The notes beneath the pieces were generated by a model that made no database searches, had not been told where the DNA came from, and saw only the letters and a list, made by a program, of their open reading frames with translations. From IMG/VR virus record IMGVR_UViG_3300036852_000164, positions 1-23,920 of that record: 23,920 nucleotides of DNA, one strand, 5' to 3'. Shown here piece by piece: positions 1-22,367 of this stretch. The DNA comes from a virus. The position numbers and the translations under genes were made by a program. The stretch's first letter is position 1, and every line of letters begins with the position of its first letter.

Positions 1-232
1 TGCCGACCGTGCCCCAGTTCCGGCCCAGCTCGACCAGGCGGCGGCCATGGCCCGGCTCGGTGCGGTAGCCGAGGCGTTCCAGCCGCCACGCCAGCGGCTG
101 GTCCGGGCCGTCGACCACGATCAGGTGTTCGATCGGCTGGTAGGTCTGCGACCACACCGACGGGATGCACCGCTCGATCAGGACGCCGGGCCGGCCATGG
201 GTGGCGGTGATGATCGAGACCAGCGGGTTCAC
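1..232 (-). CDS. Family 2 glycosyltransferase, N-terminal part (runs off left edge)
   Basis: Only the first 77 codons are inside the window; the C-terminal part is missing. The GTG start (230-232) overlaps the TGA of the upstream oxidoreductase in a GTGA junction. The N-terminus begins PLVSIITATHGRP, continues through SVWSQTYQPIEHLIVVDG, and so matches the opening beta strand, helix and second strand of GT-A family 2 glycosyltransferases, where the Asp of VVDG contacts the nucleotide. These enzymes transfer a sugar from a nucleotide-sugar donor. Sugar, acceptor and C-terminal architecture cannot be seen. It is the last visible gene of a four-gene chain (methyltransferase, small peptide, oxidoreductase, this gene) joined by four-base overlaps, so it probably acts on the same glycan. 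Family assignment is firm; the specific role is inference. Confidence 0.85.
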   Translation of the reverse strand, partial: MNPLVSIITATHGRPGVLIERCIPSVWSQTYQPIEHLIVVDGPDQPLAWRLERLGYRTEPGHGRRLVELGRNWGTVG

Positions 233-1254
233 GCCCGCACCAGGTCACTAGCCATCGCCACGATGCGGGCGGCGGCCGCGGGCGCGCCGTCGATCTTGCC
301 GGCCAGGACGTGCACGAGGTGGCCGTCACGCAGGAGGCGGGTTGGCCGCTCGTCGGTCGCGTCCACGCCGGGCAGGACCGCCCGCACCGTGAACAGCGAC
401 CCCGCGTAGGTCGCGCCGGCCAGCGCCGGGAAGTGCCTGCGCGCGCCAGCGAGCACCGCCCGCACCCGGCTTCCCCCCGTGGGGACCACGCCACGGTCCA
501 GCAGCGGCGCGAGGTGGCCGGGGATCTCCGCCGTGAGGCCCTCATTGGCAGCGTGGACGCTCTCAGTGACGTGGTAGAGCAGGTGCCCCCGCGCGGTTGG
601 CAGCGGGTCCAGCGAGCAGCCGGACTCCCCGTCCAGAACCACGAACGACGTGAAGGCGTGCGCGGTCAGGCCCAGCACCATCACGACCTCGCACACCTCG
701 AAGCGCAACGGCGCGGGCCAGCCCCGCCCGTAGGTCGCCACCACGACCAGGTCGTGGTCGAGCTTGCCCGGGTTCACGTCGGCGGGTGGGCGGAACCGGA
801 CCTTGGCCTGGCGCAGCTCGGCGCGCAGCTGCTCCCGCAGCGCGGTCACGTTGACCAGCGCCTCGGGCACCCGGACGCACACGTCGACGCCGGCCAGCAG
901 CGACGGCGGCTTGCAGACCTGCGCGCCCGCGTCGAGCTGCTCACAGAACGCCAGATACTCGTCCGCGCCGGTCAGGCTGCCCTCGCTGGCGATGGCGTAG
1001 TAGTGGGCGTTACGGCGGTTCACCGCCCCCGGGAACCGGACCGCAAACGCCTGCGCGTCGGCCTTGGCGGCCAGGGCCGTGGGAAGCGACCGGGGGTAGT
1101 GGAACCCCGAATGCAGCCGGGCCTGCTGCTGCCGCGTCGCGCCTCCCAGCAGGTCGCGGTGGCGCTCGTACAGGTCCACCTGGTGGCCGGCACGGGCGAG
1201 CTCGACCGCGATGGTTGCGCCGTACACGCCGGCGCCGACGACGGCGGCCCTCAC
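229..1254 (-). CDS. FAD-dependent oxidoreductase (DAO-like, glycan-cluster type)
   Basis: A 341-residue flavoprotein. GAGVYG at residues 7-12 is the Rossmann GxGxxG loop and Glu30 at the end of the second strand (LYER) is the usual FAD ribose contact. The segment QQARLHSGFHYPRS (residues 43-56) resembles a motif I associate with DAO-fold oxidoreductases in bacterial polysaccharide clusters. I chose the GTG at 1252-1254 because it makes a GTGA overlap with the stop of the preceding small gene and starts just before the Rossmann strand; an earlier in-frame start at 1290 would add 12 residues. Substrate is unknown. A flavin oxidase between a methyltransferase and a glycosyltransferase suggests oxidation of a sugar or lipid-linked sugar. 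It is not a typical phage structural or replication protein, so it is probably acquired host-type DNA. Confidence 0.82.
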   Translation of the reverse strand: MRAAVVGAGVYGATIAVELARAGHQVDLYERHRDLLGGATRQQQARLHSGFHYPRSLPTALAAKADAQAFAVRFPGAVNRRNAHYYAIASEGSLTGADEYLAFCEQLDAGAQVCKPPSLLAGVDVCVRVPEALVNVTALREQLRAELRQAKVRFRPPADVNPGKLDHDLVVVATYGRGWPAPLRFEVCEVVMVLGLTAHAFTSFVVLDGESGCSLDPLPTARGHLLYHVTESVHAANEGLTAEIPGHLAPLLDRGVVPTGGSRVRAVLAGARRHFPALAGATYAGSLFTVRAVLPGVDATDERPTRLLRDGHLVHVLAGKIDGAPAAAARIVAMASDLVRA

Positions 1255-1412
1255 GTACCGCCCCACAGGCAGGTCACCCGCCAAAGCCATTCAGCCATAC
1301 CAAGCCGTCGACGGTCGATCAGCCAGCCAGCGACCCGGTCGACCGTCCGCTCCCAGCGAAGCCGGATCCGGACCCGCCGAGGAAGCAGTGGCAGCAGCGA
1401 CGGCGCGCTCAC
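1251..1412 (-). CDS. Small basic, Trp/Arg-rich hypothetical protein (53 aa)
   Basis: An unrecognised 53-residue ORF. Its GTG start overlaps the methyltransferase stop (GTGA, 1409-1412) and its TGA overlaps the oxidoreductase GTG (GTGA, 1251-1254), so it fills the gap exactly with translational coupling on both sides; this is the main reason to believe it. The protein is rich in Arg, Leu and Trp, with a mildly amphipathic middle (RTVDRVAGWLIDRR) and a C-terminal Trp-rich piece. No domain is recognised. It could be a small membrane-associated partner of the neighbouring enzymes. A chance ORF cannot be excluded, but two exact four-base overlaps argue against it. Confidence 0.5.
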   Translation of the reverse strand: MSAPSLLPLLPRRVRIRLRWERTVDRVAGWLIDRRRLGMAEWLWRVTCLWGGT

Positions 1413-1978
1413 GCCAGGCCCTCGTAGACCGCCAGGGTGTCGACCAGCCGCGGCGGTGGGCCCAGGACCCGCTCGAGTGCCGCACGGACACCTGGGCAAG
1501 TGGCCTCGTCCCAATCATGCGCCGCTAGAACACCACCAGGCTTGAGCAGCTTTACCGCCCAGCCGACGTCGTGCTCCACCGTCGCCTCGTCATGGCCGCC
1601 GTCGACGAACACCAACCCGAACGTGGCCGCCTCCAGGTTCGGCAGGGCCTGCTGCGACGTGGCCACGACCACGGTGACCCGGTCGGCGACCCGGTAGGCG
1701 GCGAGGTTGCCGGCCAGGACCTGGTAGGTGCCGGGGTTCTCGCCCGCGTGCGGGTCGACGGTGGTCACCTGGGCGCCGGCCAGGGCCAGCACGACCGCGC
1801 TGTAGCCATACGCGCTGCCGATATCGAGGGCGTTGCCCGCGGCGGCGGCCAGCTCGGCGAGGACGGCGGTCTCGTCCAGGGTGATCGACGTCAGGATCGC
1901 GGGCGCCTCGGCCCGGCCATCAACGTGGACGGGCCGCCACGGCAGGGAGATCACCACGTGCGGGCCCTCACTTGGCAT
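1409..1978 (-). CDS. Class I SAM-dependent methyltransferase (Methyltransf_24-like)
   Basis: A Rossmann-type methyltransferase of 189 residues from the ATG at 1978. Motif I is LDIGSAYGYS (residues 51-60), the acidic end of strand 2 is VDPH (74-77), and FVDGGHDE (about 124-131) followed by LKPGGVLAAHDWDE is typical of the Methyltransf_24 group, which includes sugar and small-molecule O-methyltransferases. An in-frame ATG at 2020 would give 203 residues but overlaps the divergent plus-strand gene, so I prefer 1978; neither has a strong ribosome-binding site. It is the first gene of the leftward chain, coupled by GTGA to the next ORF. Context suggests methylation of a glycan or glycan precursor. 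A DNA or protein substrate is unlikely from the motifs but not excluded. Confidence 0.8.
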   Translation of the reverse strand: MPSEGPHVVISLPWRPVHVDGRAEAPAILTSITLDETAVLAELAAAAGNALDIGSAYGYSAVVLALAGAQVTTVDPHAGENPGTYQVLAGNLAAYRVADRVTVVVATSQQALPNLEAATFGLVFVDGGHDEATVEHDVGWAVKLLKPGGVLAAHDWDEATCPGVRAALERVLGPPPRLVDTLAVYEGLA

Positions 1979-2005
1979 GAGCTGGCGGATGCTGGCATGA
2001 ACTGG
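1974..2005. promoter_or_regulatory. Direct repeats in divergent intergenic region, candidate operator
   Basis: Two copies of GGCATGARCTGG occur at 1974-1985 and 1994-2005, start-to-start spacing 20 bases, about two helical turns. They lie between the divergent methyltransferase (leftward) and winged-helix gene (rightward), and the first copy contains the methyltransferase start codon. This is where an autoregulatory DNA-binding protein would bind. A weak -10-like TAAGCT at 2006-2011 lies just upstream of the plus-strand ATG and would give a leaderless or nearly leaderless transcript. Repeats are seen directly; binding is inference. Confidence 0.4.
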
Positions 2006-2018
2006 TAAGCTTAGGTGC

Positions 2019-2315
2019 ATGGAACGCAACGAGGTATCACGCCATGAGGTCGAGGTCATCCGAGTCCTGACAAGTCATCAAGGCCAATGGCTGACCAACC
2101 AGCAGATCCGCGATGCAGCGACCGACGTCGCGCCCCGAACCGTCCGAGCAACGACGCTCAAGCTCGTCCGCCTCGGCCTACTGGATCAGGCAGAGGTCTT
2201 CCCGGCGCACCGCTACCGCCTGTCAGGGTTCGCCGCCAAGCGGAACCGTGGCTACTGGGACAGGGTCCAGCAGGCGGCCGAGGTCTTCGGCGTCAAGCTG
2301 GGCAACTCAGCCTGA
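2019..2315 (+). CDS. Winged helix-turn-helix protein, the only plus-strand gene
   Basis: A 98-residue protein. Residues about 10-70 have winged-helix character: a first helix (EVEVIRVLTS), a helix-turn-helix (LTNQQIRDAA then APRTVRATTLKLVRLGLL) and a short wing (AEVFPAHRYRLS), as in MarR-like and related small regulators. The C-terminal 25 residues are helical and basic. It is transcribed against everything else in the window, diverges from the methyltransferase and converges on the double-domain glycosyltransferase, with the two 3' ends overlapping by nine bases (2307-2315). Its local base composition appears less GC-rich than its neighbours, which suggests separate acquisition. It probably represses its own promoter and the leftward sugar cassette. 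A non-regulatory DNA-binding role cannot be excluded. Confidence 0.7.
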   Translation: MERNEVSRHEVEVIRVLTSHQGQWLTNQQIRDAATDVAPRTVRATTLKLVRLGLLDQAEVFPAHRYRLSGFAAKRNRGYWDRVQQAAEVFGVKLGNSA

Positions 2316-3806
2316 CCCAGCATCATCACCTGCATGCGCCCGAAGACGTTCCTCGAATAGTTTGCGGTCCTCCTCAAAACTGGACTGGCCGAGTTTATGG
2401 ACCTCGTCCAATTCGGCCTTCTGCCAAAATGGATGGAGATGTTCCACGCGGCTCGCGAGCGCAGGAGTCCAGGTGCCACGCTGTTTCGCGGCCGTCACCA
2501 GCTCATCATCGACGAAATTGTGCTGATAACCCTCATGGCAAACAATACCCGGCCCATCCCAGCTCGCCCCGACCTGATCCACATATAAGCGGCGAACCAA
2601 TGGATGCGGTGAATGCTCGCCGGCCATCACCCGCGGATTCCCCAAATCATTCGTCCCGACGACCGAGAACCGGTCGCCCTCGGCGGCGGCGAGGGCGTGG
2701 TCCCACCAGCCCGGATGGAAGCGGACGTCGGAGCCTGTCAGCAGCAGCCACGGCTCGCTGGTGACCCGGTAGCCCTCGTTCACCTTCTCCGCGAAGGTGC
2801 CCGGCCGGTCATCGGCAGGGTCCAGCGGCAGCAGCACGGTCGCGCCGGCCTGCTTCCATGCCGTCGCCGCGTCTTCGTCGCCCCGGTCGCAGATGGCGTA
2901 CGCGCGGGCCAGACCGGTGCTCGCGCGCAAGCTCGCCATGAACGGCGCGGCGTGCTCGGGGCGTCCAAGGACCGGGACCAGGACCGCGACCTCCTCCGTG
3001 GCCGGCGCCGGCACGCCCAGCGCGAGGTAATCGTGCTCGGCCAGCCACACCCGCTTCGCATGCGTCGTCCGCACCCCAGTGTGGACGTAGACGGGGACGC
3101 CGACGGCGGTCGCCCGCATGCAGAACGACAGGTCCTCCCCCATCGACCCCTCACGGGCCGGCACCCGGTGATACCACTCCGGGCCGTACTTGGCTTGGAT
3201 CCGCTCGAACACCGAGCGATGGACCAGGATCGCCGCCGACCCGGTCGCGTCGCAGCGGACCAGCGCGTTCTGCGGGTAGCCCCAGCGGATATCGAAGCCC
3301 TCCAGCTCCTGGCCGTCCACGGTCGTGACTGGCGCCCAGTCGTAGACGGTCGGGACCGGCATCGTGTGATAACCACCCATCCCGTCGGGGCCGAGCTGCC
3401 GCGACCCGAAGCACAACGCCCCCACGACCGGCCGCTCCGTCGGGTCCGCGGCGGCCATCAGCTGCTCGAGCAGGTCCGGCTGGAAGCCCATGTCGGTGTC
3501 CAGCCACAAAAGCCACGGCGCGTCACCAGCCAGGAAGTCGCGGACGGCCTTGTTGCGCCCGGCGACCAGCTGGCCGGAGTTGCACTCCATCGAGATCAGC
3601 CCGCCGCGGCGGATCCGCTGGTGCGTGCCGAGGTCGGCGAGGAACAACTGCCACCAGGAGTGGTGCCACGAATAGGCGACGTCGTCTGTATGCAAATAGG
3701 CCACAGTGACCGCGTCGGGAAGCGGCTCGGCCTGGACGAGCTTGGTGGCCTGCTCCGGAGTGATGCCCTCGGTCAGCAGCGTCTGGACTGTCGCGGTCTC
3801 AGCCAT
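2307..3806 (-). CDS. Double-domain GT-A glycosyltransferase
   Basis: A 499-residue protein with two consecutive GT-A-like domains. The first (about 30-255) has LLWLDTDMGF with the metal-binding DTD at 103-105, and GEDLSFC at 223-229, the acidic pair expected near the acceptor site. The second (about 272-480) restarts with VAVLVPVLGRPEHAAPF and has LLLTGSDVRFHPGWW, where GSD (358-360) takes the DxD position, then FVDDEL (431-436). No signal peptide or membrane helix is seen, so it should act in the cytoplasm. It lies three small genes downstream of the capsid gene. Glycosylation of virion proteins is known in mycobacteriophages, so a capsid or tail acceptor is a reasonable inference; DNA, lipid or host-surface acceptors remain possible. 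The last 80 codons look lower in GC than the rest. The ATG start overlaps the preceding gene by eight bases. Confidence 0.85.
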   Translation of the reverse strand: MAETATVQTLLTEGITPEQATKLVQAEPLPDAVTVAYLHTDDVAYSWHHSWWQLFLADLGTHQRIRRGGLISMECNSGQLVAGRNKAVRDFLAGDAPWLLWLDTDMGFQPDLLEQLMAAADPTERPVVGALCFGSRQLGPDGMGGYHTMPVPTVYDWAPVTTVDGQELEGFDIRWGYPQNALVRCDATGSAAILVHRSVFERIQAKYGPEWYHRVPAREGSMGEDLSFCMRATAVGVPVYVHTGVRTTHAKRVWLAEHDYLALGVPAPATEEVAVLVPVLGRPEHAAPFMASLRASTGLARAYAICDRGDEDAATAWKQAGATVLLPLDPADDRPGTFAEKVNEGYRVTSEPWLLLTGSDVRFHPGWWDHALAAAEGDRFSVVGTNDLGNPRVMAGEHSPHPLVRRLYVDQVGASWDGPGIVCHEGYQHNFVDDELVTAAKQRGTWTPALASRVEHLHPFWQKAELDEVHKLGQSSFEEDRKLFEERLRAHAGDDAGSG

Positions 3807-3987
3807 CGCGGACCACCGCGAACTGCTCGGCGGCGATGATGGTCACCTCGACCTCGGGGATGCGCCGCTTGAGGTGCTTGGCGAGCTGGTCGGCGTGCTC
3901 GGGGTAGGTGTCCTGCCGCACCCGGATCAGCAGCTTGTCACCGGGACGGACGACCAGGGCCTCGGCAACCTCGATGGCCTCAGCCAC
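3799..3987 (-). CDS. Small conserved-type phage protein (62 aa), unknown function
   Basis: A 62-residue acidic protein with a central alternating pattern (DKLLIRVRQDT, then EVEVTIIAAEQF) around a helix (HADQLAKHLKRRIP), a compact alpha/beta fold. Small proteins of this look occur in head-gene regions of actinophages, but I cannot assign a function. It starts at GTG, and the sequence GTGGCTGAG both starts this gene and ends the one before (eight-base overlap). It ends the same way into the glycosyltransferase. It might form an oligomeric clamp or accessory factor for the glycosyltransferase or for the head; this is speculation from position only. Confidence 0.65.
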   Translation of the reverse strand: MAEAIEVAEALVVRPGDKLLIRVRQDTYPEHADQLAKHLKRRIPEVEVTIIAAEQFAVVRDG

Positions 3988-4222
3988 CGACGCGCTCCGG
4001 CCAGTGCCAGGTACCGCCAGGCTTGAGGTCCTCGTCCCACGGAACCTCGGTGTTGAAGAACGCCCCGGTAGGATTGAGGACGGCCAGACCGACGACGTTG
4101 TGCTCGTGCATCTCGGTCACGATCGCGGCACGGCATGCATGGGCATACTCCCCACCCGGCGTGCCATAGCTCATGTAGTGGACGATGCGGCCGACGCTGG
4201 GTACCTGCTCCCGCTCAGCCAC
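3980..4222 (-). CDS. Small phage protein of the VGRIVHYMSYGTPGGE type, unknown function
   Basis: An 80-residue protein with PSVGRIVHYMSYGTPGGE near the N-terminus, CRAAIVTEM in the middle and GGTWHWPE at the C-terminus. I recognise this as a family common in actinobacterial phages and prophages, usually near structural genes and without known function. The strand-rich pattern suggests a small beta barrel. Start is GTG at 4222 in the repeated GTGGCTGAG junction, overlapping the previous gene by eight bases. It belongs to a run of three small proteins between capsid and glycosyltransferase. Confidence 0.75.
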   Translation of the reverse strand: MAEREQVPSVGRIVHYMSYGTPGGEYAHACRAAIVTEMHEHNVVGLAVLNPTGAFFNTEVPWDEDLKPGGTWHWPERVGG

Positions 4223-4436
4223 TCAACCGCTTGCCGGCCGGCTTCGCTGCCGCCTTCGGCGGCTCCGGCTCCACCTCGTAGTCGACCGTGAGTGGCACCC
4301 ACATACTCGGGCTGCGGGCGATGATCGGGTGGCCGGCGCGGGCGGTCTGCCGGGCCTGGACCGGGGTCGGCGCGTTCGGGCCCGCCGGGTAGTCCATGTA
4401 GGTGTCCCGCGCCATGTAGATCTCGGGGTCGGGCAT
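4215..4436 (-). CDS. Small hypothetical protein after capsid (73 aa)
   Basis: Starts at ATG 4436, preceded by a good ribosome-binding site (AAGGAG, six bases upstream). The 73 residues have an acidic, Tyr-rich N-terminus (PDPEIYMARDTYMDYPAG), a middle with QARQTARAGHPIIA, and a Lys/Pro/Ala-rich tail (PPKAAAKPAGKRLSG). It is the first gene after the capsid gene and its stem-loop and begins the run of three small genes that leads into the glycosyltransferase. The position would fit a head decoration or completion protein, but the sequence does not prove this. The frame is supported by the ribosome-binding site and by the eight-base overlap at its end. Confidence 0.65.
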   Translation of the reverse strand: MPDPEIYMARDTYMDYPAGPNAPTPVQARQTARAGHPIIARSPSMWVPLTVDYEVEPEPPKAAAKPAGKRLSG

Positions 4437-4453
4437 GGCTGCTCCTTCACGCC

Positions 4454-4498: not shown

Positions 4499-5962
4499 TC
4501 AGGTGGCGTAGACCAGCACGCGGAAGGCGTTGTCCACGAGCACCTTCGAATTGTTCCTCCAAAGGGCGAAGATCGCCCGCTGGCCGGTTGGAAGGTTCCC
4601 CTGCGCGGCGCCGAAGAGGTGCGGGATGACCTCGATGTCCATCCCGGCGCGGTCGACGATCAGGAACTGGCTGAAATCGCCGAGGATGGCGTAGCGGCCG
4701 CCGAACACGGTGGACGAGGTGAACCGGACCGGCATCGCGGTCGCCTCGCGGGCGGGGTAGCCGATCAGCTCGGGAGGGCGGCCCTCGGTCAGCCTGGCGT
4801 AGAGGGTGCCGTTGGTGTCCAGGGCGCGCATCTGGTTGTAGAAGTTCTTGCGGGCCAGCCACTGCGCGCGGGGGGTGAACCGCGGCGCCATCGCGTTCTC
4901 GGCCGCGAACACGGTGGTGGCGGCGTTGAACGCGGTGACGGTGTCGTTGACGTTGGAGGCGGTCGACAGGGTCGCCTGGATCCCGCCCGGGGCCGGCGGG
5001 GTGCCCGACCCGGTCACGAACGCGGTCGCCTCCTCGACGTCCTTGGCGTCCTGGAGCAGCCGGGTCATCTCGCTTCGGAGCTGCGTCCAGTCCTGGTCAG
5101 CCTCGATGCTGAATGGCACGAACCCGCGGACGGTGGTCGGGGTGAGGGTCGGCCCGGCCAGGGTCGGCGCGTTGTCGGTCGACGCCAGCGCCTCACCCAG
5201 CCGCCCGACGGTGATCCCGGCGGAGGTGACCCCCGACCAGGTCTTGCCGACGATCGTCTCCACCCGGCTCATCTGCCGCAGCGGGTTGGTCGCCCCGTCG
5301 GAGGTGATGATCACGGTGGGGTCCAACTCGAACGGGACCGCGACGCCGGTGCCGGACAGGGTCAGGGCGGCCTGCGGGCGGGGCACGTCGCCCTTGCCGG
5401 ACACCTGCGCCCAAAACCAGCGCTCGTACTCCGGCGACCCGGTCGCCAGGACCCGCTTGGCGAGGGTGCCGCGCTCGTCATCGATGTCGTCCAGGAGGCG
5501 CAGAACGTTGGTCTGGGCGTCCTCGCGGGTCACGATGCCGCGGACGGTGCCGTACTTCGCCTGCTCGATCGCACGCTTGGCGTTGTCGTGCAGCCGCGCG
5601 CGGTACTCCTCGTCGTCGTGGGACTCCGACCGGATGCGCTGCAGGTCGAAGATCTCGGTGCCGCGGCGGCGGATCACCACTGGCGCGCCGCCGCCGTTGC
5701 CGACGCGCTCGGTCGCCTGCGCGTCGGCGGCGGAGGCCGCGATCTGCGCCAGGCGCTCCCTGCGGGCGCGCAGCTCGGCGATGACGCCGACGTGCTCGTC
5801 GCGTTCGGCGTTGAGGCCGTTCCACTCCTCGCGGATGGCGGCGGGCATGGGAGCGCCCGCGTAGTCGGCGTCGATCTCCTGCACCCGAGTGTCGATGTCG
5901 ACGACCCGGGCCTCGCGGTCCTCAATGCTCATCGCATCGGAGATGCTCAGCGCATCTGCCAT
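4499..5962 (-). CDS. HK97-fold major capsid protein
   Basis: A 487-residue protein from ATG 5962, which has a good ribosome-binding site (AAAGGAG, nine bases upstream). The first 100 or so residues are charged and helical (IREEWNGLNAERDEHVGVIA and onward), the usual delta or scaffolding domain of phages without a separate scaffold protein, and are normally removed by the prohead protease. The rest has capsid-family features: VPFELDPTVIITSDG, then a long E-loop and P-domain region with VEEATAFVTGSGTPP and a C-terminus of GQRAIFALWRNNSKVLVDNA and AFRVLVYAT. It forms the icosahedral shell. It overlaps the protease stop by 16 bases, which supports co-translation of protease and substrate. Confidence is high from fold features and gene order. 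Confidence 0.93.
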   Translation of the reverse strand: MADALSISDAMSIEDREARVVDIDTRVQEIDADYAGAPMPAAIREEWNGLNAERDEHVGVIAELRARRERLAQIAASAADAQATERVGNGGGAPVVIRRRGTEIFDLQRIRSESHDDEEYRARLHDNAKRAIEQAKYGTVRGIVTREDAQTNVLRLLDDIDDERGTLAKRVLATGSPEYERWFWAQVSGKGDVPRPQAALTLSGTGVAVPFELDPTVIITSDGATNPLRQMSRVETIVGKTWSGVTSAGITVGRLGEALASTDNAPTLAGPTLTPTTVRGFVPFSIEADQDWTQLRSEMTRLLQDAKDVEEATAFVTGSGTPPAPGGIQATLSTASNVNDTVTAFNAATTVFAAENAMAPRFTPRAQWLARKNFYNQMRALDTNGTLYARLTEGRPPELIGYPAREATAMPVRFTSSTVFGGRYAILGDFSQFLIVDRAGMDIEVIPHLFGAAQGNLPTGQRAIFALWRNNSKVLVDNAFRVLVYAT

Positions 5963-7266
5963 TGGGGTGTCTCCTTTCCAGGAGGGCTCGGGACGAACCA
6001 CGAGGGGGTCGTTCCCATCCGGACCGGGCGCCGGCCGTTGCCGGACTCGGGGGCTTGGGTGGTGGTGCGGGCATCGGAGGGGGCGTCGGCCAGGTGCGCG
6101 TTGAGGTGCCGCTGGATGGCGTCGTGCTCGGACTCGGGGATGGTCGACTGGGGCAGCCGGGACAGGGCGTTGCGGACCCCGGCGAGGTGCGCCGCGCCCG
6201 GGGTGCCGTCCTCGCTGATCTGATGGTGGAGGAGCTTGCAGGCCTCCTTGGTGAGGGTCCCGTCCACGACCTGGGCGCCGTCGTACCAGCCGTAGGCCTT
6301 CTTCGCGGTCGCGACCGGCATCGGGGACGGCAGCCGCTTCTCGTTCGGGCCGGCGTCCCAGGTCCCGTCGACGGTGGCGGTGTGGTGGGTCGGTGGCGCG
6401 GTCGCGGCCACGGCCCGGGCGGCGCTATCCACCGGCGGGCCCGCCGCGGCGCTGGCCGCAGGGCGGGCCTCGGAGGGCCGGTGGGCGAACACCGACAGAT
6501 CCCAGGCGTCGGAGATCGGGCGGCCGTCGGCGTCGGCGACCTCGTCGACCAGCCCGGCCTTGTAGGCCTCGTCGGCGAGATACCACGTCTCGGCCAGCAT
6601 CCGGGACCGCCAGTCGGCGATCTCGCCGCCGGCGTGGGCGGCGTAGATGGAGGCGATGTTGTCGCCGTGCTTGTCCAGCAGGCCAGCCATGTCGCGCATG
6701 TCGGCGGCGTTGCCGATGACCAGACCCCACGGGTCGTGGATCATCAACATGGCGTTGGCCATCGCGGTGACCTTGTCGCCGGCCATGGCGATGAAGCTGG
6801 CCGCCGAGGCGGCCAGGGAGTCGACCAGGACGTGGACGTGGGCCTTGTGCTGCCGCAGGGCGTTGTAGATCGCCACTGCCTCGAACACGTCGCCCCCAGG
6901 GCTGTTGAGGTGCAGTTCGATCTTGGGGGTGTCGACCTGGCGGAGGTCGCGGACAAATTCAGCGGCGCCCGTTCCGAACCACCCAATCTCATCGTAGATG
7001 TCGATGATGGTCGTGTCGCCGTCAACCTTCGGCTCGTCCTGGCCGTCGTCGCCCGCAGGCTCGGCCTCGGCGGCCTTGGCGCTGATCCGGTACCACGACC
7101 TGGCCTGACGGGCGAGCGGGCGGATGAGCCGCAGCCGGGGCCGGCCCTTCCCATCGACGAAGCCGGCTGGCGACGGCGGGATGGAGCCGGCGATGGCGGG
7201 ATCGGCCAGCTTGTCGAACGGGACCACGCCGACCACCTTCAAGTCGCGCAGGTCGCGGCTGTCCAT
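5947..7266 (-). CDS. ClpP-like (S14) prohead maturation protease with C-terminal extension
   Basis: A 439-residue protein if started at ATG 7266 (GGAAGGA seven bases upstream). Residues about 85-245 form a ClpP-like domain: LHLNSPGGDVFEA (118-130), nucleophile Ser154 in LAASAAS, His177 in MLMIHDPW, and the third-residue region AETWYLADEAYKAGLVDEV, where Glu226 stands at the usual Asp position, as I recall for phage members. A Pro/Ala linker leads to a C-terminal domain (about 320-425) with RLPSPMPVATAKKAYGWYDG and KLLHHQISEDGTPGAAHL, a module I associate with phage head proteins. It should process capsid and its delta domain inside the prohead. The open frame continues upstream of ATG 7266 without a stop but also without a start codon; see the separate entry. 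Confidence 0.9.
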   Translation of the reverse strand: MDSRDLRDLKVVGVVPFDKLADPAIAGSIPPSPAGFVDGKGRPRLRLIRPLARQARSWYRISAKAAEAEPAGDDGQDEPKVDGDTTIIDIYDEIGWFGTGAAEFVRDLRQVDTPKIELHLNSPGGDVFEAVAIYNALRQHKAHVHVLVDSLAASAASFIAMAGDKVTAMANAMLMIHDPWGLVIGNAADMRDMAGLLDKHGDNIASIYAAHAGGEIADWRSRMLAETWYLADEAYKAGLVDEVADADGRPISDAWDLSVFAHRPSEARPAASAAAGPPVDSAARAVAATAPPTHHTATVDGTWDAGPNEKRLPSPMPVATAKKAYGWYDGAQVVDGTLTKEACKLLHHQISEDGTPGAAHLAGVRNALSRLPQSTIPESEHDAIQRHLNAHLADAPSDARTTTQAPESGNGRRPVRMGTTPSWFVPSPPGKETPQWQMR

Positions 7267-11240: not shown

Positions 11241-12047
11241 CTACGCCACTGCTTGCCGAGTGCTGTTGCAGGGAGGGCATGAGGCGACAAGGTTAGCTAG
11301 CTCGTTGTTCGCCCTGTTCCAGTCCAGGTGGTCAACCACCAACGCAGCTTGGTCAGCCGGGTATCGCTTGGACCAGTCGACCAGCGTGCTGCACCAATGG
11401 CAGGGATGCTCACCTGGACCAATAGCCTCGTACAGCACCAGCCGATGCAGAGCGACGACGCCGTCCTTGCCGGCTAGTGAATGGCCAGGGCGCTTCACCC
11501 TTCGGTAACGCCGATCTGGGTAGCGGGCGTTGGGGAAGCTGACCAGCGGGTCGCCATGCCGCTCCCAGCGCCGTGAGTGCATCGAGCACCAGCCGCGATT
11601 CTTGCTGGGCTTCTCACACCCGTCGATGGTGCAGGTGAGCGGATGGATTCGCTTGTTCAGTCGCTCGGTGATGCCGTTCCTGTAGAACCGGATGTAGTGC
11701 TTCAGGCAAAGGTCGAGACTTCGGCGTGGTTCCTCGCAACCCTCAGCGGTGCAGGCCAGGGTGTTCTTTGGCTGCCGGAGCGGTATGCCGGCCTGGGGGT
11801 CACCGCACCTCAGCCACCGCTGGTAATGCAACTGGCACCAGCCACGGCCACCATGGCCGATCCGCCCCTCGCAACTCGGGGCCTTGCAGAGAGTTCCGTT
11901 CGCCGCCCTTCCGGCCAACGGATCGCCGTACTTGGTGAATCGGCGGCAATGCGGCTGGCAGTAACCGTGGCCGTAGTGCTTCCTGCCGCAGCCGGGAACG
12001 GTGCAGGTACGCTGGGCGATGGTCGGCCTCCTGGTAGGTCGATCCAC
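11241..12047 (-). CDS. HNH endonuclease with four N-terminal zinc-finger repeats
   Basis: A 268-residue protein. Four tandem repeats of the form C-x4-C...GxC-x2-H followed by RRxxxxGDP occupy residues 15-43, 54-84, 99-126 and 139-167; examples are RGWCQLHYQRWLRCGDP and RGWCSMHSRRWERHGDP. Residues 201-262 are the HNH core: HRLVLYEAIG, CHWC (216-219), VVDHLDWNRANNEL with the catalytic Asp-His at 239-240, and CPPC (257-260). Zinc-finger arrays on HNH enzymes usually give sequence-specific binding, as in homing endonucleases. The gene starts at GTG, has its own candidate promoter, does not overlap its neighbours and appears less GC-rich, all consistent with an independently mobile gene inserted upstream of the terminase. 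Confidence 0.85.
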   Translation of the reverse strand: MDRPTRRPTIAQRTCTVPGCGRKHYGHGYCQPHCRRFTKYGDPLAGRAANGTLCKAPSCEGRIGHGGRGWCQLHYQRWLRCGDPQAGIPLRQPKNTLACTAEGCEEPRRSLDLCLKHYIRFYRNGITERLNKRIHPLTCTIDGCEKPSKNRGWCSMHSRRWERHGDPLVSFPNARYPDRRYRRVKRPGHSLAGKDGVVALHRLVLYEAIGPGEHPCHWCSTLVDWSKRYPADQAALVVDHLDWNRANNELANLVASCPPCNSTRQAVA

Positions 12048-12087
12048 GGCCCGGGGTGTGGGAGCACCGCCGGGCCACTACATGCCT

Positions 12088-12117
12088 ATTATCGCAGGTC
12101 AGAGGGACAATCACCAA
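12088..12117 (-). promoter_or_regulatory. Candidate promoter for the zinc-finger HNH gene
   Basis: Reading leftward, TTGGTG (12112-12117) and GATAAT (12088-12093) are separated by 18 bases and lie about 40 bases upstream of the GTG start. GATAAT is one mismatch from TATAAT and stands out in this GC-rich region. The -35 element overlaps the 3' end of the small HNH gene. Sigma70-type recognition is inferred. Confidence 0.4.
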
Positions 12118-12383
12118 CGCCTTGAGCGCGGGCTCCACTTCGGCGTGAGGTTCGCGCCCCGAGACTGGTTGCACCGCTGACCGCATGTGCTGCAACCGCG
12201 CACACCGTGCGCTGGCCGCCAGTTGCTCGGCTCGGCGCGCAGGTCGGGGGCAACGCTGGCGGGAATGACGTGGTCGAGGGAGTCGCTGCCGGGGTGGCCG
12301 CACAGCCAGCAGGTGGGGCCGGTGGCCTGGACCTCGGCCAGTGCCCTGCGGTAGGCACGGCTGTCGTAGGTCCAGGCTGACAT
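12111..12383 (-). CDS. Small HNH endonuclease of the packaging region
   Basis: A 90-residue HNH protein starting at ATG 12383. CWLCG provides the first zinc knuckle, SLDHVIPASVAPDL the catalytic His with its preceding Asp, SNWRPAHG the Asn region, and CSTCGQRCNQSRGA the second knuckle and final helix. Small HNH proteins of this kind sit near terminase genes in many phages and, in several cos phages, work with the terminase in cutting packaging ends. Here an HNH homing-type gene and a small zinc protein separate it from the terminase. Packaging is therefore a good but unproven inference; a free-standing homing nuclease is the alternative. Confidence 0.82.
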   Translation of the reverse strand: MSAWTYDSRAYRRALAEVQATGPTCWLCGHPGSDSLDHVIPASVAPDLRAEPSNWRPAHGVRGCSTCGQRCNQSRGANLTPKWSPRSRRW

Positions 12384-12391
12384 GGCTACCG

Positions 12392-12799
12392 CTACAGGCT
12401 GACCGAGAGGTTGTTGGTGGTGTCGGTGAGCGTGGCGCTGCGGACGACGACCGTCATCGGGGGTTCGCACTTGGGCTGCAGCACCGCCGTCACCGAGAGG
12501 CTGCCGGAGACCTGGCCGTTCTGGACCGGCAGCGTCGCCGCGGTGGAGAAGGACTGCTTGTTGCCGGCCGCCGGGTCGTTGCCGCCGGGGTTGACGCACT
12601 GGAACGTGGCGTCGAGGAGGTAGTCGACCTGGGGTTCGTCGCCGAGGCCGGCTTCCTTGAACGTGACGGTGAGGGTGCTGCCAGTCTGGGCGAAGGTGGT
12701 CTGGTCGTTGACGAAGTGGGGTGAGCCGGCGAGGGCGGGGGCCGTGGTCGCGGCGAGCAGGCCGGCGGCGAGGGCGACGGTGGCGAGGATGCGGCGCAT
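12392..12799 (-). CDS. Exported protein of actinobacterial type, unknown function (135 aa)
   Basis: Starts at ATG 12799 with AAGGAG nine bases upstream. A clear signal peptide (MRRILATVALAAGLLAATTA, cleavage likely after ALA at about residue 24) precedes a beta-rich domain: TLTVTFKEAGLGDEPQVDY, then CVNPGGNDPAAGNKQ and a final segment with KCEPPMTVVVRSATLTDTT. I recognise the NPGGN..AANKQ and CxPPMTVV pattern from secreted actinobacterial proteins of unknown function. Two Cys could form a disulfide. It is unusual among packaging genes and looks like a host-derived cargo or lysogenic-conversion gene. Its stop lies nine bases before the small HNH start. Confidence 0.75.
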   Translation of the reverse strand: MRRILATVALAAGLLAATTAPALAGSPHFVNDQTTFAQTGSTLTVTFKEAGLGDEPQVDYLLDATFQCVNPGGNDPAAGNKQSFSTAATLPVQNGQVSGSLSVTAVLQPKCEPPMTVVVRSATLTDTTNNLSVSL

Positions 12800-12801
12800 G
12801 T

Positions 12802-13023
12802 TCAGTTCTCCTTGGCTTGGAGCTTGGCGATGACCCGGTCGGCGATGCGTTCGACATCCTCGTCGGACAGGCGCCATGGCTGGGCTTGGACGTAGACCGG
12901 TGCGGCCGGTGTCTTCCAGAGGCAGTTGTGGAAGCCCAGGTAGTGCGTGCCGCAGCTTGGGCAGGTCGACCATGCGGGGCCGGTCGTGTCCCACGGGCTT
13001 CCGATGACCGCGCTGGACGTCAC
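12802..13023 (-). CDS. Small CxxC protein (73 aa), unknown function
   Basis: Start taken at GTG 13023 (VTSSAVIGSPWDTTGP); the ribosome-binding site is weak, so the start is uncertain. CPSCGTHYLGFHNC supplies three Cys and one His for a zinc knuckle. The C-terminus is a charged helix (WRLSDEDVERIADRVIAKLQ). It is separated by two bases from the exported-protein gene start and could be co-translated with it. Function unknown. Confidence 0.55.
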   Translation of the reverse strand: MTSSAVIGSPWDTTGPAWSTCPSCGTHYLGFHNCLWKTPAAPVYVQAQPWRLSDEDVERIADRVIAKLQAKEN

Positions 13024-14529: not shown

Positions 14530-14770
14530 TCAGCAGACCCATCCGGCGGGGTCGATCGTGCTGGCTTCGGCGGCGTCGGGGTAGCGGACGCGGCCGGCTG
14601 CGAGCGCGTCGGCGCGGGTGGGGGCGGGGCCACCCATGGCGAGCGGTGTGCGCCCGGCGAGCAGGGAGTAGGCCTGCCAGTACCATTGGCCGGTGAGGGG
14701 GCCCTGCCAGGTGATGAGGCGGACAGTGGGCGTAGGCGGCGAGGTGGGCTCCCAGCTCGGCGTAGGTCAC
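14530..14770 (-). pseudogene. Small gene split by a +1 frame change
   Basis: The GTG at 14770 overlaps the MT-A70 stop (GTGA) and opens with a plausible helix, TYAELGAHLAAYAHCP. After about 14725 that frame becomes Arg/Pro-rich noise, while the +1 frame, which has no start codon, gives convincing protein: VRLITWQGPLTGQWYWQAYS, then RTPLAMGGPAPTRADALAAG and a stop at 14530. The 241-base span is one base over a multiple of three, as expected for one inserted base. Joined, it would be an intact protein of about 79 residues. A sequencing or assembly error, a true null mutation and a programmed shift are all possible. Function unknown. Confidence 0.5.
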
Positions 14771-15537
14771 GAAGCGGCGCCTTCGTAGCCCCAGCCCCAG
14801 GAATCCCAGCCGAGGCGGGGCTGCCGGGCGAACAGCTCGACATAGGGTTCAGGGCTTACCTGCTCGACCACGTCAAGGAACGCAGCAGGCTTGACCGAAT
14901 GCGGGCCACGCGGCCACTGCCACCAAGTCGTGTCCACACGGTTCGCGTCGGCCGCAAGATCCGCCTGGTCGGCAAGCCCTGGGAGTACGTCGCGGAGCCG
15001 TCGCCAGTCCTCGGCGGTCGGGTAGGACAGGTCGGCTTCCCAGTTCGACACAGCACCGCCGTGGTTGACCTTGCCGTACGCACCGACGGCAGCACAGACG
15101 GCCTTGGTGCTCAGTCCTGCCGCTTGACGGGCGACCTTGATGAGGGCACCTACAGGGCGGCGGCAGAACAGAATGAATTCGGTGGTGTTGGTGAACGCGC
15201 CACCCTGGCCGAGGCCCATGGGCTCCTTGCACCATGTCAGGACCTTGCCGACCCGCCAGCCCCAACCCTCCGCGATGCGCTTGGCCTCCCACAGGTGACG
15301 CTGCGTCGTCCACAAGTACAGGTGCGCGCCGGGCTGGGCGAGCGCGGCCACCGGGAGGGCGACAATCTCCCCGAGCGACATCAGCGAATAGGACCATGGC
15401 CGGGACCATCCCTGGTCGCCCCGTGAGGTTGGCCCGAACGGTGGCCGGTCGCCCTCATACGGCCACGGCGGGTCGGCCACGATCGTGGCGTAGGGCGGCA
15501 AGAGTCCTTCCCAGCTCATACCAGGGTAGGGCGTCAT
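14767..15537 (-). CDS. MT-A70 adenine methyltransferase with embedded HTH domain
   Basis: A 256-residue protein. DPPWPY (22-27) is the DPPW catalytic motif of MT-A70 enzymes, which methylate adenine N6; AHLYLWTTQRHL and VGKVLTWCKEPMGLGQGG are the next conserved blocks, and PYVELFARQPRLGWDSWGWG is the C-terminal block that contributes to SAM binding. Between them, residues about 132-185 (IKVARQAAGLSTKAVCAAVG, then AVSNWEADLSYPTAEDW) look like an XRE-type helix-turn-helix. Most MT-A70 proteins are shorter there. It may give the enzyme its own site selection or let it regulate genes. Start ATG overlaps the upstream stop (ATGA). Likely role: modifying phage DNA against host restriction. Confidence 0.88.
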   Translation of the reverse strand: MTPYPGMSWEGLLPPYATIVADPPWPYEGDRPPFGPTSRGDQGWSRPWSYSLMSLGEIVALPVAALAQPGAHLYLWTTQRHLWEAKRIAEGWGWRVGKVLTWCKEPMGLGQGGAFTNTTEFILFCRRPVGALIKVARQAAGLSTKAVCAAVGAYGKVNHGGAVSNWEADLSYPTAEDWRRLRDVLPGLADQADLAADANRVDTTWWQWPRGPHSVKPAAFLDVVEQVSPEPYVELFARQPRLGWDSWGWGYEGAAS

Positions 15538-20237: not shown

Positions 20238-21317
20238 TCATGCGGTGGCCTCCATGCGCCGCCAGAGCAGTTCGAGGGCGAGGGCGCCCTGCTGGGGCAC
20301 GACGGCATTGCCAAGGGCGGTCACCCGCTGGACGCGGTTGGGGAGGCTCTTGGCGATGACCGTGCGAGGCGGCTCCCACGGGTACTGCGCGGCGCCCTGC
20401 GGGGCCGGCCAGCGGTGGCCGTCCAGCCCTCGGGGAAGCCCATCAGGCCCTCCACCCATGCCGGGTTCAGGCAACTCCCCGCCATGTCCGGCAGCTGGGC
20501 GCCCCTGGCCTGCTGCTTGGCCGTCCGCTCGCCGTGGTGGTCGCGGGCCATCGGCGTCGGCCAGAGGGTGACCGCCTGGGGCAGCGACGGCGTGCCCGTG
20601 CCGTGGCGGGCACTCGGGCCACCCTTCGCGCCGTCCGTGGACAGCGACGTCGGCCAGAGCCTGACCACCGCCATCAGTCCGTAGCCGCTCGGTGTGCCGA
20701 TGTCCGGCCGGTTGTAGAGCCCCGAGACCGTTGGGGTCGGCCAGCGGGCCGCGCCCGTCAGGGTCGGGTTCCCGCTGCCGTAGGTCGCGCTGGTCCGCTC
20801 CGAGTCGGCCGCCGTGGGCGTAGGCCAGGATGAAGACCCGTGCCCGTTCGTGCGGGGCGCCAGCGTCGGATGCGCGGACGCAGACCCATTCCGCATTGAA
20901 CCCGAGCGTGGCCAGGTCACCAAGGATCGCCTCGACAGGTGCCGGCCGGTATCGCCCGTCATCTCGCCAAGGGGAAAGGAGCCCTGCCGGGGCCTCCACG
21001 AACGCGTAGCGAGGTCGTAGTCCGCGAAGGAACCGAGCCATCTCGGGCCAGAGCCAGCGGTCATCGTTGGTCACCTTCCGTTTCCCGGCGGTGGAGAACG
21101 GCTGGCACGGCGGCCCGCCGAAGACAAGGTTGACGGGTTCGAGCACGGCCGGGTCGAGGGCCTTGATGTCGCCGTGGCGCGGCGTGGCGGGCCAGTGCCG
21201 CTCGAGGACGGCCGTGCAGTACGGGTCCACCTCAACCTGCCAAGCGACCTCGAAGCCGTGCGCTTCGACGGCGAGGTCCAATCCGCCCACGCCACTGAAG
21301 AGGCTGCCGGCCTTCAC
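20238..21317 (-). CDS. C5-cytosine DNA methyltransferase
   Basis: A 359-residue protein. LFSGVGGLDLA (6-16) is SAM motif I, GGPPCQPFS (67-75) is the catalytic loop with Cys71, FVEAPAGLL (106-114) is at motif VI, where most enzymes read ENV, GAPHERARVF (153-162) is motif VIII, and LGNAVVPQ (335-342) is motif X. The region between VIII and X, where target recognition lies, has four repeats of the form LADxxG and looks low in complexity. It methylates cytosine at an unknown site, probably to protect phage DNA. Start is GTG 21317. No cognate restriction enzyme is visible. The same DNA has a second long open frame (separate entry). Confidence 0.9.
   Translation of the reverse strand: MKAGSLFSGVGGLDLAVEAHGFEVAWQVEVDPYCTAVLERHWPATPRHGDIKALDPAVLEPVNLVFGGPPCQPFSTAGKRKVTNDDRWLWPEMARFLRGLRPRYAFVEAPAGLLSPWRDDGRYRPAPVEAILGDLATLGFNAEWVCVRASDAGAPHERARVFILAYAHGGRLGADQRDLRQREPDPDGRGPLADPNGLGALQPAGHRHTERLRTDGGGQALADVAVHGRREGWPECPPRHGHAVAAPGGHPLADADGPRPPRRADGQAAGQGRPAAGHGGELPEPGMGGGPDGLPRGLDGHRWPAPQGAAQYPWEPPRTVIAKSLPNRVQRVTALGNAVVPQQGALALELLWRRMEATA
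20321..21064 (-). CDS. Overlapping frame with WPTP repeats inside the cytosine methyltransferase gene
   Basis: A 247-codon ORF on the same strand, entirely inside the C5 methyltransferase gene but in another frame. It reads LGSFADYDLATRSWRPRQGS, LVTWPRSGSMRNGSASAHPT, then WPTPTAADS, WPTPTVSG, WPTSLSTDG and WPTPMARDH, and LNPAWVEGLMGFPEGWT. I recall phage proteins with repeated WPTP motifs and LNP..V.WLMG.P.GWT, sometimes annotated as methyltransferase companions. Starts at ATG 21064, with no evident ribosome site. The methyltransferase frame is clearly real at both ends, so this is either genuine overprinting or a recurrent frame shadow. Confidence 0.35.
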   Translation of the reverse strand: MTAGSGPRWLGSFADYDLATRSWRPRQGSFPLGEMTGDTGRHLSRRSLVTWPRSGSMRNGSASAHPTLAPRTNGHGSSSWPTPTAADSERTSATYGSGNPTLTGAARWPTPTVSGLYNRPDIGTPSGYGLMAVVRLWPTSLSTDGAKGGPSARHGTGTPSLPQAVTLWPTPMARDHHGERTAKQQARGAQLPDMAGSCLNPAWVEGLMGFPEGWTATAGRPRRAPRSTRGSRLARSSPRASPTASSG

Positions 21318-21867: not shown

Positions 21868-22119
21868 TCACGGGGTCACCTCACCGGGAGGATCGGTGGC
21901 GAGGCGTTCGAGGATCCGGCGGTTGCGCTCGATCGAGGCGCGCAGCCGCGCTTGGAACTCGGGGTCGGCGCGGCGGGCAGCGACGTGGGCGGCGACGGCC
22001 TGGCGGATCGCCTCGGATGACGGGATGCCGTCGGTCTCGGCCACGGCGGCGAGGTCCTCGGCGAGGGCGTCGGGCAGGCGCACGGTCGTCGGCTTCTGGT
22101 GGTCGTTCGGGGACGTCAC
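21868..22119 (-). CDS. Ribbon-helix-helix DNA-binding protein (83 aa)
   Basis: GTG 22119 overlaps the upstream stop (GTGA). KPTTVRLPDALAEDLAAVAE is the strand and first helix of a CopG/Arc-like fold, and IPSSEAIRQAVAAHVAARRA the second helix. The C-terminal part is a charged helix (EFQARLRASIERNRRILERL). Such proteins are dimeric repressors, often antitoxins; no toxin partner is evident next door (the following gene is the HNH-like protein, the previous one hypothetical). It may regulate this small operon. Confidence 0.78.
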   Translation of the reverse strand: MTSPNDHQKPTTVRLPDALAEDLAAVAETDGIPSSEAIRQAVAAHVAARRADPEFQARLRASIERNRRILERLATDPPGEVTP

Positions 22120-22367
22120 GGCCTCACCTCTTGCAGCATGCGTAGCTCGGTCACGCCGGGCAGCGCCCAGTGATCCGGCACGCGCTCGTACGGCCCACCG
22201 CCGTGGCTGATGAGTTGGCCGGCGAGGTCGGCGGCGGTGCGGTCCCACCATGGGTGGCCGCACGGCGGGCTGGTGCCCTGCTCGCACACCCAAGCGAGGT
22301 CATTGGCCACGTCCGGGCCGCCGACGGCGTAGCCCCAGACCAATATCTGGAAGCGGAAATCGTTCAC
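22116..22367 (-). CDS. Hypothetical protein (83 aa)
   Basis: GTG 22367 forms GTGA with the upstream membrane-protein stop, so it is preferred to the ATG at 22379. It opens NDFRFQILVWGYAVGGPDVA and continues with CEQGTSPPCGHPWWDRTAAD and HGGGPYERVPDHWALPGVTE. Two Cys and one His might bind a metal. No family recognised. Coupled at both ends by four-base overlaps. Confidence 0.6.
   Translation of the reverse strand: MNDFRFQILVWGYAVGGPDVANDLAWVCEQGTSPPCGHPWWDRTAADLAGQLISHGGGPYERVPDHWALPGVTELRMLQEVRP

Follow-up and report, generated by a model that had tools for sequence, protein, structure and literature searches.

A conserved phage gene cassette with an exchangeable flavoprotein slot, putatively devoted to virion glycosylation

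Glycosylation of virion proteins has been reported for a few mycobacteriophages. In Corndog, an O-methyltransferase and three transferases are encoded among the structural genes and were proposed to modify the capsid (PMC4351075), and glycosylated proteins were reported for this phage later (as cited in PMC12363180). The original study of this process in mycobacteriophages is Freeman 2023, cited in PMC12619734, PMC12363180 and PMC11600133. In a eukaryotic algal virus, chlorovirus PBCV-1, virus-encoded transferases build N-linked glycans of the capsid, and in one of its proteins, A064R, two glycosyltransferases are combined with an O-methyltransferase for rhamnose (passages of PMC7826918). Here, we analyze the virus record IMGVR_UViG_3300036852_000164 of IMG/VR from position 1 to 23,920; this whole stretch of 23,920 bases is referred to as the window. 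Downstream of its capsid gene, the minus strand encodes a double GT-A glycosyltransferase (GTd), a methyltransferase (MT), a flavoprotein (FAD) and, last, a glycosyltransferase of family 2 (GT2). This cassette is conserved and mostly uncharacterised, and its most unusual feature is an exchangeable slot, occupied in the window by the flavoprotein. We consider it reasonably probable that the cassette serves virion glycosylation, glycan and target both being putative. Corndog is the closest precedent, and the system of the window would work alike, as an analogue.

The conservation of the cassette was assessed in viral contigs by scans from three starting proteins, GTd, the GT2 of locus L002 and a FAD profile, whose sets of loci overlap. 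The FAD profile retrieved 22 loci, 17 of them at 44% identity or more, and GT2 lies downstream in all 17. Redundancy was then removed at a threshold of 95% identity in the middle gene, which left 16 non-redundant FAD loci including the window. Whether related phages keep the genes together, a check proposed in an earlier note on this DNA, is answered by the order MT-FAD-GT2: the first recognised gene upstream of FAD is MT in 15/15 non-redundant loci whose sequence extends that far (that of L002 starts within FAD), and the first one downstream is GT2 in 16/16. In 12 of the 15, MT runs directly into FAD with a 4-base overlap, and in the remaining three the two are 154 (window), 232 (L172) and 519 bases (L097) apart; FAD and GT2 overlap by 4 bases in 11 loci, the spacing in the other five being -8, -1, -19, +196 and +463. 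Start codons were picked by proximity to the expected start, a choice that biases the result towards tidy overlaps. Because the gene order recurs in many diverged contigs, it goes beyond chance.

The five-gene cassette of the earlier note therefore holds for its MT-FAD-GT2 part, whereas GTd is separated from MT in the window by a plus-strand open reading frame (ORF) that the note had missed, and some members of the family have no GTd. GTd was found in 8/25 tabulated non-redundant loci, never together with a GT-B gene immediately downstream of GT2, so it does not belong to the core. In loci carrying FAD or its substitute described below, the gene after GT2 encodes a GT-A protein (GTA) in eight cases and a GT-B protein in nine. 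A second GT-B glycosyltransferase gene follows the head-tail adaptor gene in 9/13 non-redundant loci with an adaptor (e.g. L086:8103-9140). In L120:7106-9202, GTd and an MT-like domain (Methyltransf_24 at residues 533-644, 4.3e-18) share one frame of 698 amino acids (aa) without internal stops, a fusion that supports a shared pathway and resembles A064R of PBCV-1 as described in the passages of PMC7826918; an equally long frame is present in L119.

The slot between MT and GT2 is not always filled by the flavoprotein. In seven non-redundant loci (L081, L085, L088, L089, L094, L113 and L114), FAD is replaced by a short-chain dehydrogenase/reductase (SDR) of the NAD-dependent epimerase family, which overlaps MT by 4 bases in 7/7. 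The slot SDR of L082 matches PF01370 at 1.2e-28 and phrog_540, a nucleotide-sugar epimerase family, at 1.7e-35. Hits in L101 and L102, at 23-25% identity, 3.6-5.6 kb from GT2 and with no MT, were left out of this tally. None of the 25 tabulated non-redundant loci carries FAD and the slot SDR together (tblastn E up to 1e-4). The clearest case of replacement is a pair of close relatives: L084 and L082 share 91.8% DNA identity across GTd and MT, have no DNA match between L084:4046-5088 (FAD) and L082:7166-8010 (SDR), and match again after the slot, at 78.3% over GT2-GTA and slightly past and at 91.5% farther downstream. As the two match on both sides and differ in the slot, one lineage must have swapped the slot gene near its borders, and the lower identity over GT2-GTA shows that these genes diverged or were swapped too. 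L081, which also carries the SDR, shows an identical gap pattern against L084, with 82% identity before the gap. In a phylogeny of 21 MT proteins (14 with FAD, 7 with SDR), the label requires three changes, at least two of them forced by well-supported branches, and is still clustered (2-3 of 500 shuffles were as low); this tree is poorly resolved, with 2/18 inner branches starred, and leaves out L068 and L002, whose MT is short or absent. The FAD slot is exchangeable by gene replacement, which is a new observation. An SDR relative (40% identity) also adjoins a glycosyltransferase gene upstream of the terminase in the isolated phage Magritte, which might serve as a model of the SDR variant in culture.

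The protein families named in the earlier note are borne out by profile searches. GTd (2307..3806, minus strand, 499 aa) belongs to family 2 (PF00535, 8.4e-7; 29.5 bits against a gathering cut-off of 23.3), and its predicted structure consists of two alpha/beta domains in sequence (pLDDT 85.4). Its top Foldseek matches include human collagen galactosyltransferase COLGALT1, E. coli chondroitin polymerase and mimivirus R699. MT (1409..1954, minus strand) is a class I O-methyltransferase by Methyltransf_24 (2.7e-19; 70.5 bits, gathering cut-off 26.3), and a profile of 20 MT relatives matches solved O-methyltransferases, the best being 6jcl at 3.1e-16. GT2 (2..232, minus strand) is cut by the contig end after its first 77 aa, and this fragment falls below the Pfam cut-off (PF00535 8.1e-4; 19.8 bits against 23.3), whereas its full-length homologue in L002, to which it is 43% identical over the aligned part, lies above it (51.3 bits, 1.6e-13). 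Full-length GT2 homologues come after FAD in the related contigs.

FAD itself (229..1254, minus strand, 341 aa) carries the LHSGFHYPRS motif seen in the earlier note, together with a Rossmann GxGxxG in the form GAGVYG near its N-terminus, and is a member of the DAO family (PF01266, 2.2e-11; 44.3 bits, cut-off 27.9). Its GTG start at 1254, to which ATG 1290 is an alternative, fits a 17-row alignment of relatives. The AlphaFold2 model (pLDDT 91.7) matches opine dehydrogenase, glycine oxidase and GlpD at Z about 27. The likeness to glycine oxidase, GlpD/GlpO and opine dehydrogenase extends over the whole length of the fold (Z 25.7-27.2 over 300-316 residues) but comes with an identity of 13-18%, and phmmer with the single sequence found 0 matches in the PDB. 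The 17-row profile matches PDB chains within its first 61 positions only, best 3dme. Under the NCBIfam equivalog cut-offs, FAD is an ortholog of neither ThiO (24.5 of the 250.8 bits needed) nor MnmC (MnmC_Cterm, 33 of 174.2 bits). UDP-galactopyranose mutase, another conceivable identity of the flavoprotein, is absent among the structural matches listed.

The position of the cassette is the second element of the argument. On the minus strand of the window, the genes for terminase, portal, head protease and capsid are followed by the cassette (Pfam, PHROG). A capsid match on the same strand lies upstream in 41/45 loci of the GTd scan, all except L123, L131, L155 and L162, and upstream in 7/25 non-redundant loci, the remaining ones showing no match to the window capsid. 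In seven further loci where no GTd was found (L179 via L087, L166 via L079, L163 via L078, L083, L088, L113 and L114), the large ORF upstream of MT was tested and is a major head protein in 7/7 (phrog_10, at most 1e-63). A head-tail adaptor match follows downstream in 13/25 loci (PHROG 442, 2.6e-17 in L002), and the block sits between capsid and adaptor in all eight non-redundant loci having both (L072, L073, L172, L173, L081, L084, L083 and L114). In isolated phages with related capsids, the gap between the capsid gene and the next head gene is 75 bp (REQ1), 77 bp (Jflix2) or 76 bp (Xula), and the cassette is therefore accessory. Like Corndog and Firecracker of Cluster O, where an O-methyltransferase and several glycosyltransferases with tight overlaps lie in the head-gene operon (PMC4351075 and PMC12363180, in part), the window and most judgeable loci combine glycosyltransferases and an O-methyltransferase within a structural operon, L167 and L170 being the exceptions. 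The block of the Cluster O phages stands between portal and protease and not, as mostly here, downstream of the capsid gene, and neither a flavoprotein nor an SDR is annotated in that of Firecracker. PBCV-1 shares the principle of virus-encoded transferases building a capsid glycan, but no flavoprotein appears in the passages of PMC7826918 drawn upon.

Related phages keep these genes linked, for the most part within the head region, and the cassette is therefore best read as directing a glycan to the virion. The earlier note had inferred an oxidised, methylated glycan on capsid or tail, an interpretation that this gene linkage and the Corndog-type precedent support in part, but it had missed the SDR alternative. 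Under this reading, the cassette would be expressed late, together with the particle genes. GTd, GT2 and the GT-A or GT-B enzyme encoded after GT2 in relatives might use nucleotide sugars of the host to assemble a short glycan on a virion protein, and MT would add an O-methyl group to it. The enzyme in the middle slot would set the sugar chemistry: FAD may oxidise a hydroxyl or an amine, while the SDR of other phages may instead epimerise or dehydrate the sugar. Exchange at the slot could thereby change the surface glycan and leave the remainder of the phage largely unchanged. More tentatively, we propose that phages have a modular locus for the glycotype of the virion surface, in most cases located downstream of the capsid gene and made of conserved transferases and one exchangeable slot for flavin oxidase or SDR, in which recombination near the gene borders gives close relatives chemically different coats; this extended proposal is possible, though doubtful at present.

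Several observations weigh against a virion glycan. The C-terminus of the window capsid is no longer than that of REQ1 and thus offers no obvious acceptor, and the cassette of the window is truncated at the contig end. Comparisons of MT with gp33, GT2 with gp34-gp36 and GTd with gp35 of Firecracker, a weak test of profiles against single sequences, are not significant (probabilities at most 8.3%; E 0.0041 for MT against gp33). The whole-chain TM of the named Foldseek matches of GTd is low (0.24-0.33), so the resemblance holds at the domain level only. Among the 48 loci of the GT2 scan, MT is matched in 23 (one, L116, distantly) and FAD in 16, and 23 have neither; five distant FAD loci (L174-L178, 31-38% identity) lack both MT and GT2. 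An adaptor-like ORF sits upstream of MT in L089. No head gene was found near the blocks of L167 and L170, whose neighbourhoods contain endolysin (L167) or tail (L170) ORFs, and L167 has, besides FAD, an RmlD-type SDR upstream of MT, outside the slot. In these same two loci, the block follows a sugar-type C-methyltransferase (L167:5424-7343 and L170:6209-7447; Methyltransf_14, 3.6e-39 and 5.3e-37) which carries a Methyltransf_13 zinc domain and has other glycosyltransferases nearby; these points were counted for a virion glycan.

The FAD family is also informative through its distribution. The earlier note did not recognise a flavin oxidase in such a phage cassette as described, and this impression is sustained by our searches: neither the window FAD at 1e-5 nor the L072 FAD at 0.01 has a match in 50,697 phage records, and no such account appears among the open-licence papers listed, judged by title and start of abstract. 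MT of the window likewise has no match in these records at 1e-5, and that of L084 has 10 short weak matches at up to 0.01. Outside phages, six plasmid records match FAD at 26-36% identity. Four neighbourhoods were examined: the Roseobacter and Ruegeria plasmids carry the FAD relative with an SDR, an isomerase, GtrA and GT2, the Azospirillum plasmid carries it among glycosyltransferases, and on the Mesorhizobium plasmid it is surrounded by transposases and adjoins the gene for an NAD(P)-dependent oxidoreductase. The Roseobacter, Ruegeria and Azospirillum clusters thus resemble the phage cassette in placing the FAD relative near glycosyltransferase genes, those of Roseobacter and Ruegeria also having an NAD-dependent epimerase nearby; they differ in an FAD identity of 26-28%, in the isomerase and GtrA genes of Roseobacter and Ruegeria, and in that FAD and SDR co-occur in the bacterial clusters but alternate in the phage slot. 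A C-terminal FAD profile matched at least 1/396 genomes of Actinomycetota and at least 2/299 of Pseudomonadota, minimum counts since scoring covered part of the first-look candidates (no more than 7 or 10 per genome among those listed), with phyla inferred; a family 2-like glycosyltransferase ORF seems, by eye, to lie near each match. Scattered or host-only homologues, which the earlier note had named as evidence against its interpretation, are therefore not what is seen for the close FAD family. The FAD family thus has a glycan context in cells too, and it is not a common host gene in the sampled genomes. These counts replace a previous scan of genome contigs for FAD homologues (64 loci), whose best segments cover approximately the first 30-80 residues, a nucleotide-binding region, and are therefore uninformative for the family.

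Serotype-converting phages modify the host cell envelope, and the cassette could likewise act on the envelope during infection or lysogeny, for instance to exclude other phages. Such a role finds support in the plasmid FAD relatives beside GtrA, GT2 and polysaccharide genes (Roseobacter, Ruegeria) or among glycosyltransferases (Azospirillum) and in the L167 and L170 blocks near an endolysin or tail gene, but we regard it as unlikely, given that most judgeable blocks lie among head genes, that the FAD family is rare in sampled bacterial genomes, and that no cassette protein has several membrane segments like the GtrA control. Hydropathy detected no membrane segment in MT, GTd, GT2, GTA, GTB1 and GTB2, which was counted for a virion glycan, and single peaks slightly above the 1.6 cut-off in FAD (1.80) and SDR (1.82); for the transferases, this test is weak because a GtrB-like control also scored 0.

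DNA can be a substrate of phage glycosyltransferases (Pyle 2024), and two DNA methyltransferase genes occur in the window, so that hypermodification of phage DNA with sugars against restriction also deserves consideration. It seems very improbable in view of the position with head genes and the resemblance of GTd to protein- or glycan-acting enzymes, and no base-hydroxylating or nucleotide-hypermodifying family was detected among the 17 other window ORFs searched (10 in PHROGs, 10 in Pfam, three in both). Host-envelope and DNA modification are both possible, but less likely than a virion glycan. A role in producing or altering some small glycosylated metabolite with no link to the virion is very unlikely: the location next to capsid or adaptor genes in diverged phages speaks against it, as does the lack of any scaffold-building family among the cassette proteins searched, even if the PDB matches of the MT profile include many small-molecule O-methyltransferases and the FAD fold is common to amino-acid and glycine oxidases. 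Sugar C-methyltransferases of the kind seen in L167 and L170 are also part of antibiotic pathways, a point counted for the metabolite.

The junctions of the cassette deserve a closer look. As the earlier note stated, its last four ORFs are joined by GTGA, the overlaps MT/pep53, pep53/FAD and FAD/GT2 all being exact in the window. The 53-aa ORF pep53 (1251..1412, minus strand), which the note had counted as a basic peptide of the cassette, was rejected as an unsupported component: it has no match in Pfam, PHROG or NCBIfam, matched only itself by tblastn against part of the viral loci (E up to 1e-3), and shows a weak coding signature, with a GC content by codon position of 0.72/0.61/0.74 compared to 0.78/0.51/0.93 for FAD. 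It is probably an insertion without functional product and not a gene. Other small ORFs of unknown function occupy the same place at the MT-FAD junction (L097:1558-2084, L074:6737-6979), and L097 has there a tryptophan- and arginine-rich ORF of 74 aa with an insignificant blastp match to pep53 (E 1.4).

Between GTd and MT, the plus-strand ORF (2019..2315, 98 aa) is 63-65% identical to ORFs in L180-L182, its homologue in L181 being likewise antisense to two glycosyltransferase genes. It appears winged-helix-like by eye, with a sub-threshold Trans_reg_C match (E 0.053), and a search restricted to sigma-70-type patterns found no promoter or terminator around it. In L122, MT shares 95% DNA identity with the window over 231 bases starting at the GTG that corresponds to window 1954, and overlaps as GTGA with a GTd-like ORF made of the first domain only. 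GTG 1954 is the likely ancestral start of MT, 1978 and 2059 being other possible starts. A 4-base GTd-MT overlap is also present in L073, L081 and L084, and since these loci and L122 keep it, the window seems to carry a segment that split the ancestral overlap.

The major capsid protein of the window is of the HK97 type (4499..6001, minus strand; Phage_capsid 5.4e-28). It matches 64 phage records at an identity of at most 42.8% among the 12 matches listed, and as these relatives are phages of Gordonia, Mycobacterium, Rhodococcus and Mycolicibacterium, the virus likely infects an actinobacterial host. The cassette does lie downstream of the capsid gene but not directly, as had been claimed, for three small minus-strand ORFs intervene before GTd. 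Directly after the capsid gene comes a proline/alanine-rich ORF (4215..4439; 77% identity over 57 residues in L157), followed by an 80-aa ORF (3980..4222; phrog_2293, unknown function, 4e-26) and a 62-aa ORF (3799..3987) that is also matched in L133 and L156, ahead of GTd. In some relatives, small ORFs rich in proline, threonine or glycine occur close to the same place (e.g. L078:5903-6322); these and the ORF at 4215-4439 are possible candidate glycan acceptors. Elsewhere on the minus strand, the window encodes two adjacent ORFs with HNH endonuclease matches (11241-12857) upstream of the terminase gene, the two DNA methyltransferases (14767-15537, phrog_359; 20238-21317, phrog_363) and a CopG-type ribbon-helix-helix regulator (21868-22293; RHH_1 3.5e-6).

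If the glycotype proposal is true, the flavin oxidase would add a new activity to those involved in glycosylating phage virions, and the locus would be a source of uncharacterised sugar-modifying enzymes. The L084/L082 pair would then offer a natural comparison for the function of virion glycans. Phages would decorate their own particles with tailored, unusual sugars and diversify these through exchange of genes, at a glycotype locus comparable to the O-antigen serotype loci of bacteria.

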